A DNA stretch of 64,000 bases from Microbaculum marinisediminis (GTDB taxonomy: Bacteria > Pseudomonadota > Alphaproteobacteria > Rhizobiales > Tepidamorphaceae). The position numbers were made by a program, and so were the translations under genes. The stretch covers positions 1 through 64,000 of the forward strand of contig NZ_JALIDZ010000014.1 of NCBI RefSeq assembly GCF_025397915.1. Reading direction: 5' to 3'. The notes under the pieces were generated by a model. The model had not been told where the DNA came from, did no database searches, and was given only the letters and a program-made list of their open reading frames with translations. How positions within the stretch are numbered: the first letter of the stretch is position 1; each line of letters starts with the position of its first letter. Positions 15,249 to 22,590 of the stretch are shown piece after piece.

Positions 15249-16424
15249 TCACAACCGGCCAAGATCGTCCTCGATCCCGGCCAGGGATTCCAACGTGTTC
15301 GCGGCGGCGAAGTGGTCGATCAGCGGCAGCGCCGCCGCCATCGCCCGCGTGATCGGCTCGTAGTCGCGCCAGCCCAGCATCGGGTTGAGCCAGACGATAC
15401 GGCGCACCCGCTTCTTCAACCGCGTCAACTCGGCGACCAGCGTCTCCGGCGTGCCGGTATCGTAGCCGTCGCTCAACACCATGAAGACCGTGCGCGAATT
15501 GAGCGCGCGCTTGGCGTAGCGGTCGTTGAAGACCTTCAGGCATTCGCCGAGCCTCGTGCCGCCGCCGAAGCCCTCGGCCATCAGCGCCAGCCGGGTCATG
15601 GCCTTCACGGTGTCCTTGTCTTTGAGCGCATCGGTGACCCGGATCAGCCGCGTGTGGAACAGGTAGGCGTCGGCGTCGATCCACTCGCAGACCAGCCCCT
15701 TCACGAACTGCAGGAAAAAGCGGCTGTACAGCTTCATCGAGCCCGACACGTCGAGCAGCACGACGATGCGCACCGGACGGTCCGGACGGGCACGACGGAC
15801 CAGCGTAATGGGCTCGCCGCCATGGCCGATATTGGCGCGAATGGTGCGGCGCAGGTCGAGCTTCGGCCCCTTCGCCGCGACAGAGAAACGCCGCGACAGG
15901 CGGTAGCGCATGGCCGCGGCCAGCCTGTAGGCGAGCCGCTCGGCCTCGGCGATCTCGTCGCGGTCGGCGACATGGCGAAGATCCGCCTTGCGCACCGCGG
16001 TCTGCCGCGAGGCGACGATGCGGCCCGCCGCCTCGCCCGCGGCATCCTGTTCAGTGTCCCCTCCCCCGCGCGCATCGCCGAGGCCGCTTGCCGCGCTGTC
16101 GGGCAGATGATCGGACCAGATCGTCGGTTTCGTCGCGGCCGCGCGCTGGTGCGGACTGCCCGCACCGGCCGCCGTGCGTTCGCGCCCGCGGGCAAACCAG
16201 TAGGCTTCGAACAGGTCGTCGAAGCGCGCCCATTCCTCGTGCCTGCCGGTCAGCAGGATTTTCAGGCCGTTGCGCACCTGCGCCGCCTGAAGCGGCCCGA
16301 TCCGGTCGATGAGCGTCAGCGCGGCCTGCGTCTCGGCCGGACCGACGGCGAAATCGTTCAGCCGCAGATGGTCTATGAAGCCGGCCACCCGGCGGGCGAT
16401 TGGCGCGTGGGCGGGCGCGGTCAT
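15249..16424 (-). CDS. coxE: CoxE, von Willebrand factor A domain protein for CODH maturation
   Basis: A 391-residue protein. The C-terminal VWA domain (about 205-385) has the MIDAS signature DVSGSM and downstream SDGYDTGTPETL. The N-terminal helical part ends in the RRFSVAAKGPKLDLRRTIRA block typical of CoxE. It partners the MoxR ATPase CoxD, whose stop overlaps its ATG by 4 bases (16421-16424). In the known cox systems CoxD and CoxE act together to build the [CuSMoO2] cluster. Confidence 0.92.
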   Translation of the reverse strand: MTAPAHAPIARRVAGFIDHLRLNDFAVGPAETQAALTLIDRIGPLQAAQVRNGLKILLTGRHEEWARFDDLFEAYWFARGRERTAAGAGSPHQRAAATKPTIWSDHLPDSAASGLGDARGGGDTEQDAAGEAAGRIVASRQTAVRKADLRHVADRDEIAEAERLAYRLAAAMRYRLSRRFSVAAKGPKLDLRRTIRANIGHGGEPITLVRRARPDRPVRIVVLLDVSGSMKLYSRFFLQFVKGLVCEWIDADAYLFHTRLIRVTDALKDKDTVKAMTRLALMAEGFGGGTRLGECLKVFNDRYAKRALNSRTVFMVLSDGYDTGTPETLVAELTRLKKRVRRIVWLNPMLGWRDYEPITRAMAAALPLIDHFAAANTLESLAGIEDDLGRL

Positions 16425-17299
16425 GCCGCGTGGCCGACGAGCCGGCCGGTGACCTCCCGGGTCACCGCCTTGGCGTCGGCTTCCGTCTTCAACAGGCAGA
16501 TCAGGCTCGACTGGAAGGCGTCGGGATCCTGGTCGAGGGTCTTGAGGCCCAGTCCGGTCAGCGCCGCGGCCCAGTCGAGTGTCTCGGCGATGCCGGGCGC
16601 TTTCTCCAGGTCTTCCTTCCGCAGTTCCCGCACGAAACGGGCGACCTGCACCGCGAGCTGCTCCTCGATGTCGGGCAGATGCGACAGGATGATCGCCAGT
16701 TCCCGCTCGGGATCCGGGAACTCGACATAGGCGTAGAGGCAGCGCCGCCTCAGCGCGTCTGAGAGCTCGCGCGTCCCGTTCGAGGTGAGAATGACGTGCG
16801 GAACACTCTTCGCCGTGACAGTGCCAAGCTCGGGGATGGTGATCTGGAAATCCGACAGGATCTCCAGGAGATAGGCCTCGAATTCCTCGTCCGCCCGGTC
16901 GATTTCGTCGATCAGCAGCACCGGCGCCTTGTCCTGGCTGATCGCTTCCAGCAGCGGACGGCGCAGCAGATAGTCTTCGGAAAAGATGTGCTTTTCGATC
17001 TCGGCGGCGCCGATGTTCTCGTGCTCGCTCGCCTTGATCGCCAGAAGCTGGCGCTGGTAGTTCCACTCGTAGATCGCCGCGTTGGCGTCCAGTCCTTCGT
17101 AGCACTGCAGCCGGATCAGCCTGGTATCCAGGATCGCGGCAAGCGCCTTGGCGATCTCCGTCTTGCCTACGCCCGCCTCGCCCTCCAGCAGGAGCGGCCG
17201 CTTCAGCGTCAGGGCGAGCTGCAGCGCCGTCGCCAGCGTATCGTCGGCGACATAGTGAACCTGGGCGAGGCGTTGCTTGAGATCCGCGACTGTTTCCAT
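16421..17299 (-). CDS. coxD: CoxD, MoxR-type AAA+ ATPase
   Basis: A 292-residue MoxR AAA+ ATPase. Walker A is GEAGVGKTE (about 40-48), Walker B is VLLIDEIDRAD, sensor 1 is ILTSNGTREL and the arginine-finger region is ALRRRCLYAYVEFPDPERE. It is a chaperone-like ATPase that works with the VWA partner CoxE. It is translationally coupled to coxE (ATGA) and separated from coxL by 108 bp containing a hairpin. Confidence 0.92.
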   Translation of the reverse strand: METVADLKQRLAQVHYVADDTLATALQLALTLKRPLLLEGEAGVGKTEIAKALAAILDTRLIRLQCYEGLDANAAIYEWNYQRQLLAIKASEHENIGAAEIEKHIFSEDYLLRRPLLEAISQDKAPVLLIDEIDRADEEFEAYLLEILSDFQITIPELGTVTAKSVPHVILTSNGTRELSDALRRRCLYAYVEFPDPERELAIILSHLPDIEEQLAVQVARFVRELRKEDLEKAPGIAETLDWAAALTGLGLKTLDQDPDAFQSSLICLLKTEADAKAVTREVTGRLVGHAA

Positions 17300-17407: not shown

Positions 17408-19828
17408 TCAGCCGTTCAGGCCGAGCTTTTCCGCCGTCTTCCAGACCCGCCAGTGATCATGCGGCATCTGGGTATGCGTCAGGCCCTTGTGGGCGAACGC
17501 ATCGTTGACCGCGTTCGAGAAGGCCGATACGCCGCCGACATTCGGGCTTTCGCCCACGCCCTTGGCGCCGATCGGGTGATGCGGCGACGGCGTCACCGTG
17601 TAGTCGGTCTCCCAGGCCGGGGTCTCGACCGCGGTCGGCAGGAAGAAATCGAGCAGGCTGCTGCCCTTGACGTTGCCGATCTCGTCGTAGGCGATCTCCT
17701 GGCCCATGGCGATCGCCAGCGACTCCGTCAGGCCGCCATGCACCTGCCCCTCGATGATCATCGGGTTGATCCGCGTACCGCAATCGTCCAGCGCGTAGAA
17801 GCGGCGGATGTCCGTGACGCCGGTGTCGACGTCGACGTCGACGACGCAGATATAGGCCCCGAACGGATAGGTCATGTTCGGCGGATCGTAGTAGCTGACC
17901 GCCTCGAGACCCGGCTCGAGACCCGGGATCGCCTGGTTGTAGGCGGCGAACGCGATCTCGGCCATCGTCTTGTGCTGCTCGGGATTGCCCTTCACCTGGA
18001 AGCGGTCGACGTCCCATTCGAGGTCGTCCTCGTGCACCTCGAGCAGATAGGCGGCGATCATCTGTGCCTTGGCGCGGATCTTACGACCGGCCATCGCGGT
18101 GGCCGCGCCGGCGACCGGCGTCGATCGCGAGCCGTAGGTGCCCAGACCGTAGGGCGCGGTATCGGTATCGCCCTCCTCGACGGTGATCTGGTCGGCGGGA
18201 ATGCCGATTTCGCTCGCCAGGATCTGCGCGAACGTCGTGGCGTGGCCCTGCCCCTGGCTGATCGTGCCGAGCCGGGCGATGGCGCTGCCCGTCGGGTGGA
18301 TGCGGATTTCGCAGGAGTCGAACATGCCGAGCCCCAGGATGTCGCAGTTCTTCACCGGTCCGGCCCCGACGATCTCGGTGAAGAAGGCGACGCCGATGCC
18401 CATCAGCTTGCGGGTCTCGCCGCGATCGAAGGCCTCGCGGTTCGCGTTCTGCTCGGCGCGCAGCCCGGCGTAGTCGACGGTCTTCATCGCCTTGTCGAGC
18501 GCCGTCTCGTAGTCGCCGGAATCGTATTCCCAGCCGAGCGCAGAGGTATAGGGGAACTGGTCCTTCCGGATGAAGTTCTTCATCCGGATCTCGGCCGGGT
18601 CCATGTCCAGCTTGCGCGCCAGAATGTCGATCATCCGCTCGATGAAGTAGGACGCCTCCGTCACCCGGAACGAGCAGCGATAGGCGACCCCGCCCGGCGC
18701 CTTGTTGGTGTAGACGCCGTCGACCGACACGTGCGCCAGCGGAATGTCGTACGACCCCGTGCAGATATTGAAGAATCCGGCCGGGAACTTCGTCGGATCG
18801 GCGCAGGCGTCGAACGCGCCGTGATCGGCGAGCACGTGGCAGTCGAGCGCCGTGATGCGCCCGTCCCTGGTCGCCGCGATCTTGCCGCTCATGTGATAGT
18901 CGCGGGCGAACGCCGTGGACGTCAGGTTCTCCATGCGATCCTCGACCCACTTGATCGGCACGCCGGTGACGATCGAGGCGACGGCGGCGCAGATGTAGCC
19001 GGGATAGACGCCGACCTTGTTGCCGAAGCCGCCGCCGATATCCGGCGAGATGATGCGGATGTTGTGCTCGGGGATGTTGGTGATCAGCGAGGCGACCGTG
19101 CGCACCGCGTGCGGCGCCTGGAAGGTGCCCCAGATGGTCAGCTTGCCGTTCACCTTGTCCATCGAGGCGACGCAGCCGCAGGTCTCGAGCGGACAAGGAT
19201 GGACGCGCTGATAGGTGATCAGTTCTTCGGCCACCACGTCGGCGCCCTCGATCGCCTTGTGAGTGTCCTCCCTGTCGCCGACCGACCAGTTGAAGATGTG
19301 GTTGTAGTGCTTCCTCGGCCCGTGCGCGCCGTCCATCTTGTCCTTGATGTCCTCGCGCAGGAGGGGCGCGTTCTCGTCCATCGCCTTGAAGGCGTTGTTG
19401 ATGGCGGGAAGCTGCTCGTAGTCGACCTCGACGAGGTCCACCGCGTCGGCGGCGACATAGCGGTTCTCGGCGACGACGAAGGCGACTTCCTGGCCCTGGA
19501 ACAGGACCTTCTCGTCGGCCAGCACCGCCTGCACGTCGCCGGCCAGCGTGGGCATGTAGTGCAGGTTCAGCGGCTTCAGGTCGTCGGCGGTCAGCACCGC
19601 GACCACGCCGGGCACGGCCATCGCCGCATCCTTGTTGATCGACTTGATGCGGGCGTGGCCATAGGGACTGCGCACGAAATCGCCGAACAGCATGCCGGGG
19701 AGCTTGATGTCGTCGACATAGTGGCCCTTGCCCTGGGTGAACCGCGCGTCCTCGACGCGCTTGCGCTTGCAGCCGAGGCCCTGGAGCTTCTCGGCGCGTT
19801 CGACGGTTGTCGGGGTCTGGTCGTTCAT
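17408..19828 (-). CDS. coxL: CoxL, large subunit of form I aerobic carbon monoxide dehydrogenase
   Basis: An 806-residue molybdopterin-binding subunit of the xanthine oxidase family. The diagnostic form I active-site loop AYRCSFR is present at residues 382-388, with Cys385 expected to carry the Cu-S-Mo centre; form II enzymes have AYRGAGR instead. Other cofactor-contact stretches are [12 protein letters not shown] (about 262), QGQGHAT and the C-terminal [12 protein letters not shown]. Glu in the last of these is the conserved catalytic base. It oxidises CO to CO2 in complex with CoxS and CoxM. It overlaps coxS by 4 bases and is followed by the maturation genes. Confidence 0.97.
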
Positions 19829-20319
19829 TCCGCTGCCTCCCTCGCGCCGGCGAGCTCATCTGCCGCGGCGCTGATGGCTTTGACGATGTTCTGGTATCCG
19901 GTGCAGCGGCACAGATTGCCGGAGATGCCCATCCGGATCTCGTCCTCGGTCGGATTCGGGTTCTCCTGCAGCAGCCGGTAGGCCCGGGTGATCATGCCCG
20001 GCGTGCAGAAGCCGCACTGCAGGCCATGGTGCTCGCGGAAGGCCTCCTGCAGCGCGTGCAGGGTCCCGTCCGGCGCGGCAATGCCCTCGATCGTGGTGAT
20101 GTCCGCGCCGTTCGCCTGGGAGACGAACATCGTACAGGCCTTCACCGATTGGCCGTCCAGGTCCACCGTGCAGGCGCCGCAATGGCTGGTGTCGCAGCCG
20201 ATATGCGGACCGGTGAGGTTCAGCTCCTCGCGCAGGAAGTGGACGAGGAGCATGCGCGGTTCGGCAAGGCCCTCTACCGCCTTGCCGTTGACCGTCATCT
20301 TGACGTGCATCTTGCTCAT
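19825..20319 (-). CDS. coxS: CoxS, [2Fe-2S] small subunit of CO dehydrogenase
   Basis: A 164-residue iron-sulfur subunit. The plant-ferredoxin-type cluster ligands are Cys42, Cys47, Cys50 and Cys62 ([10 protein letters not shown] ... KAC). The second cluster is held by Cys102, Cys105, Cys137 and Cys139 (CGFC ... CRC). It carries electrons from the molybdenum site in CoxL to the FAD in CoxM. It sits between coxM (19 bp gap) and coxL (ATGA overlap). Confidence 0.96.
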
Positions 20320-20338: not shown

Positions 20339-21202
20339 TCAGCGGGCGCGGGAGGCGGCGCGGGCGATGCCGCGGCGCACCATCTGGCCTGCGATCCGGG
20401 TACGGAAATCCGCCGGGCCGCGGCCGTCCTCGGCCGGCTGGCAGATGGATTCGGCGGCGGCGACGGCGGCGTTCACCGCAACGGCATCCAGTTCCGTACC
20501 GACGAGCGCGGCCCCGGCGGCCTCGGCGAACAACGGCGTGTCGGCGACATTGGTCAGCGCGATCGAGGCGCTGTCGCATTTGCCGCCGGACATGGTGAGG
20601 ATCACCGCCGCGGCGGCGGTGGCGTAGTCCCCGATCTTGCGCTTCTGTTTCTCGTAGGCGTAGCCGTGACCCTTCGGCGGCGCCTCAATCCTGATCGCCG
20701 TCAGCATCTCGCCCGCATCGAGGGCCGTGAAGTAGGCCGCCTCGTAGAAGTCGCGGGCGGAGACCTCGCGCGAACCGTTCGGACCGACGAGCACATAGGC
20801 CGCGTCAAGCGCCTGCATCAGCGCCGGCATGTCGTTGCCGGGATCGCCGTTGGCGACGTTGCCGCCGATGGTGCCGAGGTTGCGGATCTGCGGGTCGGCG
20901 ATCTGCAGAGCCGTCTCGCGCAGGATCGGGCAATATTCGGCGAGCAGGCCGGAGTCGATCACCTCCGCCTGCGTGGTCATGGCGCGGATGGTAAGGGTTC
21001 CGTCGGCTTCGTCGATGCCCTTCAACTCGCCGATGTGGCGCAGGTCGATCAGGGTTTCCGGCACCGCCATCCTGAGCTTCATCATCGGGATCAGGCTGTG
21101 GCCGCCGGCCAAGACACGCCCGTCCTCGCCGGCTTCGGCGAGAAGCGACAGCGCCTCGGCCACCGTCGAGGGACGATGGTAGTCGAATGCTCCAGGTATC
21201 AT
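20339..21202 (-). CDS. coxM: CoxM, FAD-binding medium subunit of CO dehydrogenase
   Basis: A 287-residue FAD-binding subunit starting [18 protein letters not shown]. The two FAD-contact motifs are AGGHSLIP (about 32-39) and [14 protein letters not shown] (about 111-124). It passes electrons from CoxS toward the quinone pool. The start at 21202 is set by an AGGAGGAG ribosome-binding site; an in-frame start 36 bases upstream is less likely. It is the first structural gene, with 161 bp upstream that contain the direct repeats at 21308-21349. Confidence 0.95.
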
Positions 21203-21307
21203 GGTCTCCTCCTCATGCGGCTTCTTGGTCGACCGCACATTGGGAGGAACGATGGGACCGCAGGCGCTACCGTTGCGAGATCAAACTACCCGGACGCGCG
21301 TGAATTT

Positions 21308-21349
21308 CACGAAATGCGGGCTGGCTGCACGAAATGCGGGAAATGCGGG
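21308..21349 (-). promoter_or_regulatory. direct repeats upstream of coxM, candidate LytTR-type regulator site
   Basis: CACGAAATGCGGG occurs twice on the plus strand, at 21308-21320 and 21328-21340, exactly 20 bp apart. A third partial copy (AAATGCGGG) is at 21341-21349. Read toward coxM (minus strand) the unit is CCCGCATTTCGTG. LytTR-domain regulators are known to bind direct repeats about two helix turns apart. The gene just upstream, coxC, encodes such a domain. This is therefore the best candidate for the CO- or CoxC-dependent control site of coxMSL. Confidence 0.5.
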
Positions 21350-21363
21350 GCCCGATGGATCGG

Positions 21364-22590
21364 CTACTGCAGGCCGAGCGCCTTCTGGACGTCCGAGATC
21401 CGCGAGCGGCTGACGGGAATCCTGACCTCCCGGTCGCCGCTCAGGAAACAGAACGCCTTGTCGCCTTCACGCTTGAATCCCGCCACATGGCGCAGATTCA
21501 CGAGATAACTGCGATGGGTCCGGATAAACGGTGCCGTTTCGATGGCTTTTTCGACCCTGGAGATGGACCAGGGGCAGAAAAACTCGGCGGACCCGTTGAT
21601 GACGCGCGTGTAGTGGCCGTCGGCCCGGAAGGCGGAGATCTGCTCGGTGGCCAGGAACCGGATCGTATTGTCGCGCTCATAGGGAATCCGGCCGGACAGG
21701 CCCGGATCCGGCTTCTTTTCGTTCGGGCCGCCGGCGACATAGGCCTTGGACAGGGCTGAATCCGCCTTCGGCGGCACACTCACCGTTCCGGAGGCGCCCG
21801 CAACGGTAACGGGCGCGCCCCCGGGAACGCCCCCTGGAACACCGATGGCCACGCCGGCCGGCCGCATGGCCAGCCGCGCCTGGTTCTCGACCGGGATGGC
21901 CATCAGCAGGAACAGGCCGCAGATGACGAAGGAAGCGAGCGCGACGATCATCGCCAGCGTCCCCGTCGAGATGTTCGGGGTGGCGACGAAGACGACCGTA
22001 TCGGTGGCTTCGAAGGTGGTGAAGATCATCGCCACGTAATGCATCGCGGAAATGGCGAGGCCGAGCACCACCGCGCCGCACGCCGTCATCACCCAGGTTC
22101 GCCGGCGATAGGCGAGCTCGAGCGCCAGGACCGATGAGCCTATGCCGATCGCCGTCGACAGGACGAGACCGATCGGTTTGTAGGCGATGACGCAGTTCCC
22201 GGTGATCGCCGTCATGCCGATATAGTGCATGGAAACGATGCCCAGCCCCGTCAGCGTACCGGCGATCAGGATACGATCCTGCGTCCTTGCGCCGAAATGC
22301 AGCGCGATCAGCCCGACGCCGACGACGAGGATCGCCACCAGGGCGGAAATGAGCGTCGGCAGCGCACTGTAGGAGATCGTCAGGGGAATGCTGACCGCGA
22401 GCATGCCGACGAAATGCATCGACCATATGCTGCCGCCAAGCGCGACCGCAGCTTCGGCGATGCGCGGGCGGCGGGCGGCGGGATCGAGGTGCCGCAATCC
22501 GCTCGTCAGTCGCAGGCCGGTGAACGCCCCCATGATCGCTACCAGCACGGAAGCGACCACCAGGGCCGGATCGTAGGTGACGCTGACCAT
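21364..22590 (-). CDS. coxC: CoxC-like membrane regulator: MHYT sensor plus LytTR DNA-binding domain
   Basis: A 408-residue protein. The first 230 residues form seven membrane spans of the MHYT type, with signature repeats WSMHFVGM (about 56), SMHYIGM (about 119) and AMHYVAM (about 183). MHYT domains are proposed to bind copper and sense CO, O2 or NO. After a proline/glycine-rich linker, a LytTR DNA-binding domain fills about residues 305-405 (DNTIRFLATEQISAF ... RTHRSYLVNLRHVAGF). This layout is that of CoxC/CoxH in known cox clusters. It lies directly upstream of coxM on the same strand. Confidence 0.9.
   Translation of the reverse strand: MVSVTYDPALVVASVLVAIMGAFTGLRLTSGLRHLDPAARRPRIAEAAVALGGSIWSMHFVGMLAVSIPLTISYSALPTLISALVAILVVGVGLIALHFGARTQDRILIAGTLTGLGIVSMHYIGMTAITGNCVIAYKPIGLVLSTAIGIGSSVLALELAYRRRTWVMTACGAVVLGLAISAMHYVAMIFTTFEATDTVVFVATPNISTGTLAMIVALASFVICGLFLLMAIPVENQARLAMRPAGVAIGVPGGVPGGAPVTVAGASGTVSVPPKADSALSKAYVAGGPNEKKPDPGLSGRIPYERDNTIRFLATEQISAFRADGHYTRVINGSAEFFCPWSISRVEKAIETAPFIRTHRSYLVNLRHVAGFKREGDKAFCFLSGDREVRIPVSRSRISDVQKALGLQ

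Follow-up and report, generated by a model that had tools for sequence, protein, structure and literature searches.

A conserved direct-repeat array between coxC and coxM as the very probable operator of the MHYT-LytTR regulator CoxC

The direct repeats that lie between coxC and coxM in Microbaculum marinisediminis are very probably the CoxC operator of the coxM promoter. CoxC, tethered to the membrane through its MHYT domain, would place LytTR domains next to each other on two repeats (three in many relatives) that follow at two helical turns on the same face of the DNA, and would thereby make expression of coxMSLDE respond to CO. The basis for this proposal is comparative, namely the fixed spacing of the repeats, a fixed distance to a presumptive -10 element, the tracking of the array with CoxC and the match to a promoter to which CoxC has been shown to bind. 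For this organism we infer the binding by CoxC, CO as its signal (from work on Afipia carboxidovorans) and the sign of its control.

ORF and domain searches of the window (the whole stretch of DNA analysed, 64,000 nucleotides) placed the genes on the minus strand in the order coxC (21364..22590), encoding a membrane regulator of 408 aa with three MHYT units and a LytTR domain, a gap, coxM (20339..21202; CODH FAD subunit and presumptive first gene of the controlled operon), coxS (19825..20319; CODH iron-sulfur subunit), coxL (17408..19828) and a coxD-like MoxR/AAA ATPase gene (16421..17299). The coxC stop codon at 21364-21366 and the coxM ATG at 21202 leave a gap of exactly 161 bp. The coxL product belongs to form I, carrying the AYRCSFR motif and scoring 1444 bits against TIGR02416 (cut-off 991), and the regulator gene thus stands beside form I coxMSL, as is characteristic of the CoxC (MHYT-LytTR) family. 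Pfam detected PF03707 in three N-terminal stretches (MHYT) and PF04397 at the C-terminus, the latter bearing out the LytTR domain proposed in the first-pass annotation. No PAS domain, as would be expected of the PAS-type heme sensor RcoM, was matched by Pfam in CoxC; because Pfam also overlooked PAS in RcoM-like proteins, this absence is the weaker ground and the MHYT domain the stronger ground against RcoM membership. Comparison of CoxC and an RcoM-like protein with solved structures gave nothing useful. The same genome holds a second cox cluster (L181, contig C5), which is of form II with a coxSLM-like order and lacks the array.

The 161-bp gap contains two identical copies of the 13-bp sequence CCCGCATTTCGTG (minus strand), at 21308-21320 and 21328-21340, with a start-to-start distance of 20 bp, as the first-pass annotation had described. 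In gene-strand orientation the repeated unit reads CGCA(N)TTCGTGCA and defines operator site 1, CGCATTTCGTGCA (21326..21338, minus strand; core TTCGTG at 21333-21328), and, 20 bp from it, operator site 2, CGCATTTCGTGAA (21306..21318, minus strand; core TTCGTG at 21313-21308). Both cores conform to the TTNNNG core of CoxC/RcoM-type operators, and the 20-bp step to the two-helical-turn step (20-21 bp) of the same class. Scored with a position weight matrix (PWM), the two sites were the top pair of the 64-kb window (40.3 bits; next non-overlapping pair, 13.6). When the gap was dinucleotide-shuffled 5000 times, an exact 13-bp repeat appeared in only 3 of the shuffled sequences. Across the 5.1-Mb genome CCCGCATTTCGTG was found at these two places and nowhere else, and a genome-wide search likewise found the paired pattern once, so that no further array targets were seen at the pattern level; no operator was found in the window ahead of coxC itself. 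As regards the three repeats of CoxC/RcoM-type operators, a third site, weak in relatives, falls 19-21 bp past site 2, a position that corresponds in the window to 21286..21299 (minus strand; GCGCGTCCGGGTA / CGCGTCCGGGTAG), where the sequence is very degenerate and scores negatively. That the window shows no clear third site counts against the operator reading, all three repeats having been reported as necessary for repression in A. carboxidovorans OM5.

A further partial copy of 9 bp, CCCGCATTT, adjoins the pair at 21341..21349 (minus strand). The copy exists as first annotated; as a third operator site it was rejected, being unconserved in relatives, outside the conserved array and, at 9 bp off, out of helical phase. 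At this offset the PWM score is 8.6 in the window and 2.6 in the next best relative, and since relatives do not show the copy there it probably arose by partial duplication at this locus. Units repeated in part at an offset of about 9 bp (e.g. CGCATTTCGCATTTCGTG) were observed at varying positions in two relatives (L107 and L115) as well as at 21341-21349, which hints that slippage has recurred within the operator. The adjoining copy, in its resemblance to a local duplication, also favours the view that the repeats as a whole arose by chance or local slippage and have no function, a view whose likelihood we consider negligible because it is refuted by the conservation of the array at fixed spacing across alphaproteobacterial orders.

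This conservation was assessed in CoxC relatives from named genomes and further relatives, with plasmid records added, which together supplied 60 distinct coxC-coxM gaps; coxC immediately 5' of coxM is a common arrangement. A pair of CGCA(N)TTCGTGCA units was present in 53 of the 60, spaced by 20 bp (27 gaps), 21 bp (22) or 19 bp (4), and a clear pair was missing by score in the other seven, including L114 and L031 (the latter containing Ns). The proposed operator thus survived the comparison, in which loss of the repeats from relatives would have counted against it. The scoring weights were chosen after the gaps had been seen, a bias from which two tests are free: the PWM test on A. carboxidovorans OM5 described below, and a query-blind search of the gaps, which accepted any direct repeat of 12 bp with a spacing of 13-35 bp. 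In this search 41 of 57 strong repeats were spaced by 20 or 21 bp, and shuffled gaps favoured no spacing. As coxC identity within the set falls to about 33%, conservation of the array is not residual identity of close kin. Over the 53 gaps a third-site signal was detected at +20/+21 (z about 3). The conserved operator is the 20-bp pair, to which many relatives add a third, degraded site on the coxM side.

The pattern GCANTTCGTGN{8,12}GCANTTCGTG, allowing spacings of 18-22 bp, was then scanned in 397 genomes from the order and 385 from the class, and matched 16 and 4 of these, respectively, once per genome (the window's own genome counted in both), compared with 1 and 3 matches for a reversed control pattern. 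Every match was spaced by 20 or 21 bp, and nearly all lay between coxC and coxM. The exceptions were a match on a contig that ends directly after coxC (L126), a Ni-CODH locus (G301, see below) and two matches, inside a murG-like gene (L133) and after a copper-ATPase gene (L141), that were judged to be chance because the reversed control also yielded a few. In two genomes (G169 and G049) coxC is on a separate contig and the array is still at the coxM promoter; these unlinked orthologs stand near a transketolase-like gene (L145, G169 contig C31) and near other unrelated genes (L146, G049 contig C4). Conversely, in the two genomes that make up the no-CoxC control (G047 and G086), both with form I coxMSL, no CoxC ortholog was found and the array is absent from the coxM promoter. 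Ten further cox loci from the phylum gave the array in all eight with an MHYT-type CoxC, the remaining two carrying an RcoM-like gene instead. On this comparative evidence the array tracks CoxC rather than coxM.

Arrays of this kind also occur away from cox genes. In Sinorhizobium meliloti BL225C an MHYT-LytTR gene is followed by an array and then by an EAL-domain gene (L122 4738-5516 on pSINMEB01), cox genes being absent nearby. In G301 (L144 1565-13945) a perfect CoxC-type array, CGCATTTCGTGCG N8 CGCATTTCGTGCA, separates a divergent MHYT-LytTR gene from an operon led by hypA and continuing with a 4Fe-4S protein gene (cooF), cooS (TIGR01702, 734 bits), genes for a cooC-like ATPase and a hypB-like GTPase, and membrane hydrogenase/complex-I-like genes; a copper/MHYT regulator is thus apparently placed at an anaerobic Ni-CODH operon. 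One type of regulator thus has three kinds of target, which is an argument for assigning the array to the regulator. Were the repeats instead the target of another LytTR protein or of a general factor, coxC would be a bystander. RcoM-like promoters do carry the TTCGTGCA core, so that several LytTR proteins could read it, and OM5 encodes CoxH in addition to CoxC (PMC11347149); yet the array occurs with CoxC in cis or in trans, is absent without it, and accompanies MHYT-LytTR genes at operons other than cox, and we regard this alternative as very unlikely.

The first-pass annotation had considered the targets of CoxC proteins poorly defined, a statement overtaken by Durante-Rodriguez et al. (2024; PMC11347149), who mapped CoxC of OM5 to three direct repeats (TTACCGCC, TTTGGGCA and TTGCGGCA) at the promoter PcoxB. 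In that study the LytTR domain bound with an apparent KD of about 25 nM; CoxC repressed PcoxB in E. coli (lacZ), a repression that was reported to require all three repeats and was relieved by CO in a copper-dependent manner; and in EMSA the binding of membrane CoxC was abolished by CO, the truncated LytTR domain being unresponsive to CO. The published -35 and -10 elements are predicted and unmapped, expression was assayed in E. coli only, and the coxC-coxM gap is untreated in the text of the paper. On pHCG3 the published repeats start at L120 2695, 2724 and 2750, in steps of 29 and 26 bp. The window CoxC and OM5 CoxC are only about 36% identical, and for the OM5 test the weight matrix was built without OM5 or Bradyrhizobium betae sequences. 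Scanned over 10.2 kb of pHCG3, it returned as its two top pairs PcoxB and the coxC-coxM gap (25.1 and 21.5 bits; next non-overlapping pair, 8.6). At PcoxB the array consists of CGCAGTTCATGCG (2678), CGCCGTTGGTGGA (2699) and a third site AGTCGTTTGGGCA (2719), in steps of 21 and 20 bp, and TATCGT stands 59 bp from the core of site 2; in the OM5 gap it consists of CGTATTTCGTGCA (5718) and TGCTTTTGGTGAC (5738). The published PcoxB1 (repeat-1) substitution also converts CGCCGTTGG to CCCCGTTGG, altering the near-invariant G of site 2, a position at which G stands in 97% of sites. The PcoxB repeats may accordingly be re-registered to the motif found here, and with the repeat-1 mutation falling on a conserved base the binding measured in OM5 agrees with this motif. 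A reading of PcoxB as an unrelated, atypical site in a dnaE2-like remnant was dropped, since the array lies past the polymerase-matching part: in the 140-aa ORF concerned only residues 4-118 match an error-prone polymerase model. The dnaA-coxB intergenic region of pHCG3 (L120 2324-2770) holds this truncated N-terminus of a dnaE2-like error-prone DNA polymerase.

The array also stands at a fixed distance from a putative -10. In the window this element, CATCGT (21249..21254, minus strand), is assigned by position only, at a distance of 59 bp from the first base of the site-2 core, and the closest relative (L090) has GATCGT at the matching offset; no -35 is recognisable in the window. Among 47 gaps whose downstream DNA is less than 60% identical, TA...T clustered 49-52 bp after the site-2 13-mer (57-60 bp from the core) in 15 sequences, against 4 for the best other 4-nt window and a maximum of 11 over 2000 shuffles, and TTG was mildly enriched 27-28 bp after the 13-mer. 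On this reckoning the site cores would precede the inferred start by about 48 bp (the weak third), 69 bp and 89 bp and lie ahead of the -35. At the coxM promoters of RcoM-like loci, TTCGTGCA sites are 20-21 bp apart and four of these promoters (L196, L197, L198 and L199) have an in-register TA...T 57-58 bp from the second core, versus 57-60 bp for CoxC. The proteins concerned have LytTR and lack MHYT; we take them to be RcoM from a reading of their N-terminal sequence, and their genomes are presumably Burkholderiales-like, going by where RcoM is known to occur.

Given this operator, the sign of control can be read in more than one way. CO-relieved repression, in which apo-CoxC would block the coxM promoter and CO (with copper) would free the array as at PcoxB, has in our view about an even chance: the lacZ and EMSA results for OM5 (PMC11347149) point this way, as does the presence of an array of this motif at PcoxB, but the sites stand ahead of the -35 as in RcoM-type promoters, and the OM5 evidence pairs predicted promoter elements with expression data from E. 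coli. The placement of TA...T close to that of RcoM-like promoters and the absence of a recognisable -35 from the window agree better with CO-dependent activation, whereby CO-bound CoxC upstream of a weak -35 would recruit RNA polymerase in an RcoM-like manner, copper/MHYT replacing heme/PAS; since OM5 CoxC loses DNA binding with CO, we consider this plausible at somewhat below an even chance. Dual action of CoxC, both repressing and activating, appears improbable. Position alone cannot settle the sign, because PcoxB, with a like layout, was reported to be repressed. The first-pass proposal of a specific CoxC target that activates the CODH genes therefore keeps its target, backed by comparison, but not its verb, OM5 CoxC having been reported as a CO-relieved repressor.

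A direct-repeat operator for CoxC is already known at OM5 PcoxB (PMC11347149). No reports were found of a conserved array at the coxM promoter or of the motif in this register, nor of a layout shared with RcoM or an MHYT-LytTR gene with an array at a Ni-CODH operon, in a literature search that covered few subscription papers and not the original studies of RcoM binding. What appears to be new is the motif in its sharpened form, the site at the coxM promoter and the Ni-CODH locus. For the first characterised MHYT transcription factor, a loose target (three TTNNNGCN repeats at one promoter) becomes a precise motif of about 16 bits per site that sits at the promoter of the CODH structural genes themselves, gives a new reading of a published mutation series, predicts one more operator in OM5, makes CoxC regulons findable by sequence and raises a clear question on the sign of CoxC control. 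Its recurrence ahead of CODH genes in dozens of bacteria shows where a poorly understood class of gas sensor acts, and the Ni-CODH/Ech locus suggests that a copper sensor in the membrane can take a role for which CooA or RcoM would usually be expected. More tentatively, and at not quite an even chance, a single operator grammar for LytTR proteins, in which TTCGTGCA recurs every 20-21 bp and the -10 follows at 57-60 bp, may be common to the unrelated heme-PAS RcoM and copper-MHYT CoxC and have been carried by an MHYT-LytTR regulator to the oxygen-sensitive Ni-CODH/Ech operon of G301; if so, MHYT-LytTR proteins would be a general CO-responsive module at an RcoM-like, activator-type position.

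Set against known systems, the window resembles OM5 PcoxB in having an MHYT-LytTR regulator adjoining cox genes and a direct-repeat array of a common motif, and differs in that its operator lies upstream of coxM with two strong sites 20 bp apart, whereas that of PcoxB lies upstream of coxB with three repeats. The RcoM operator, for which TTCNNGCA-type sites two helical turns apart in a triplet arrangement have been described (quoted in PMC11347149), is likewise upstream of coxM, and the RcoM-like gaps examined share with the CoxC array the TTCGTGCA core, 20-21-bp steps and -10 distance; the bases 5' of the core are CCG in RcoM sites versus GCA and one free base in CoxC sites. RcoM itself is soluble, senses CO via heme, has no MHYT domain and is reported as a CO-dependent activator, whereas CoxC is a membrane MHYT regulator, reported in OM5 as a CO-relieved repressor. 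The canonical LytTR sites of AlgR, AgrA and LytR are paired direct repeats of about 9 bp spaced 10-13 bp apart (PMC11347149) with another core sequence, and are read by response regulators, whereas CoxC is a one-component membrane sensor.
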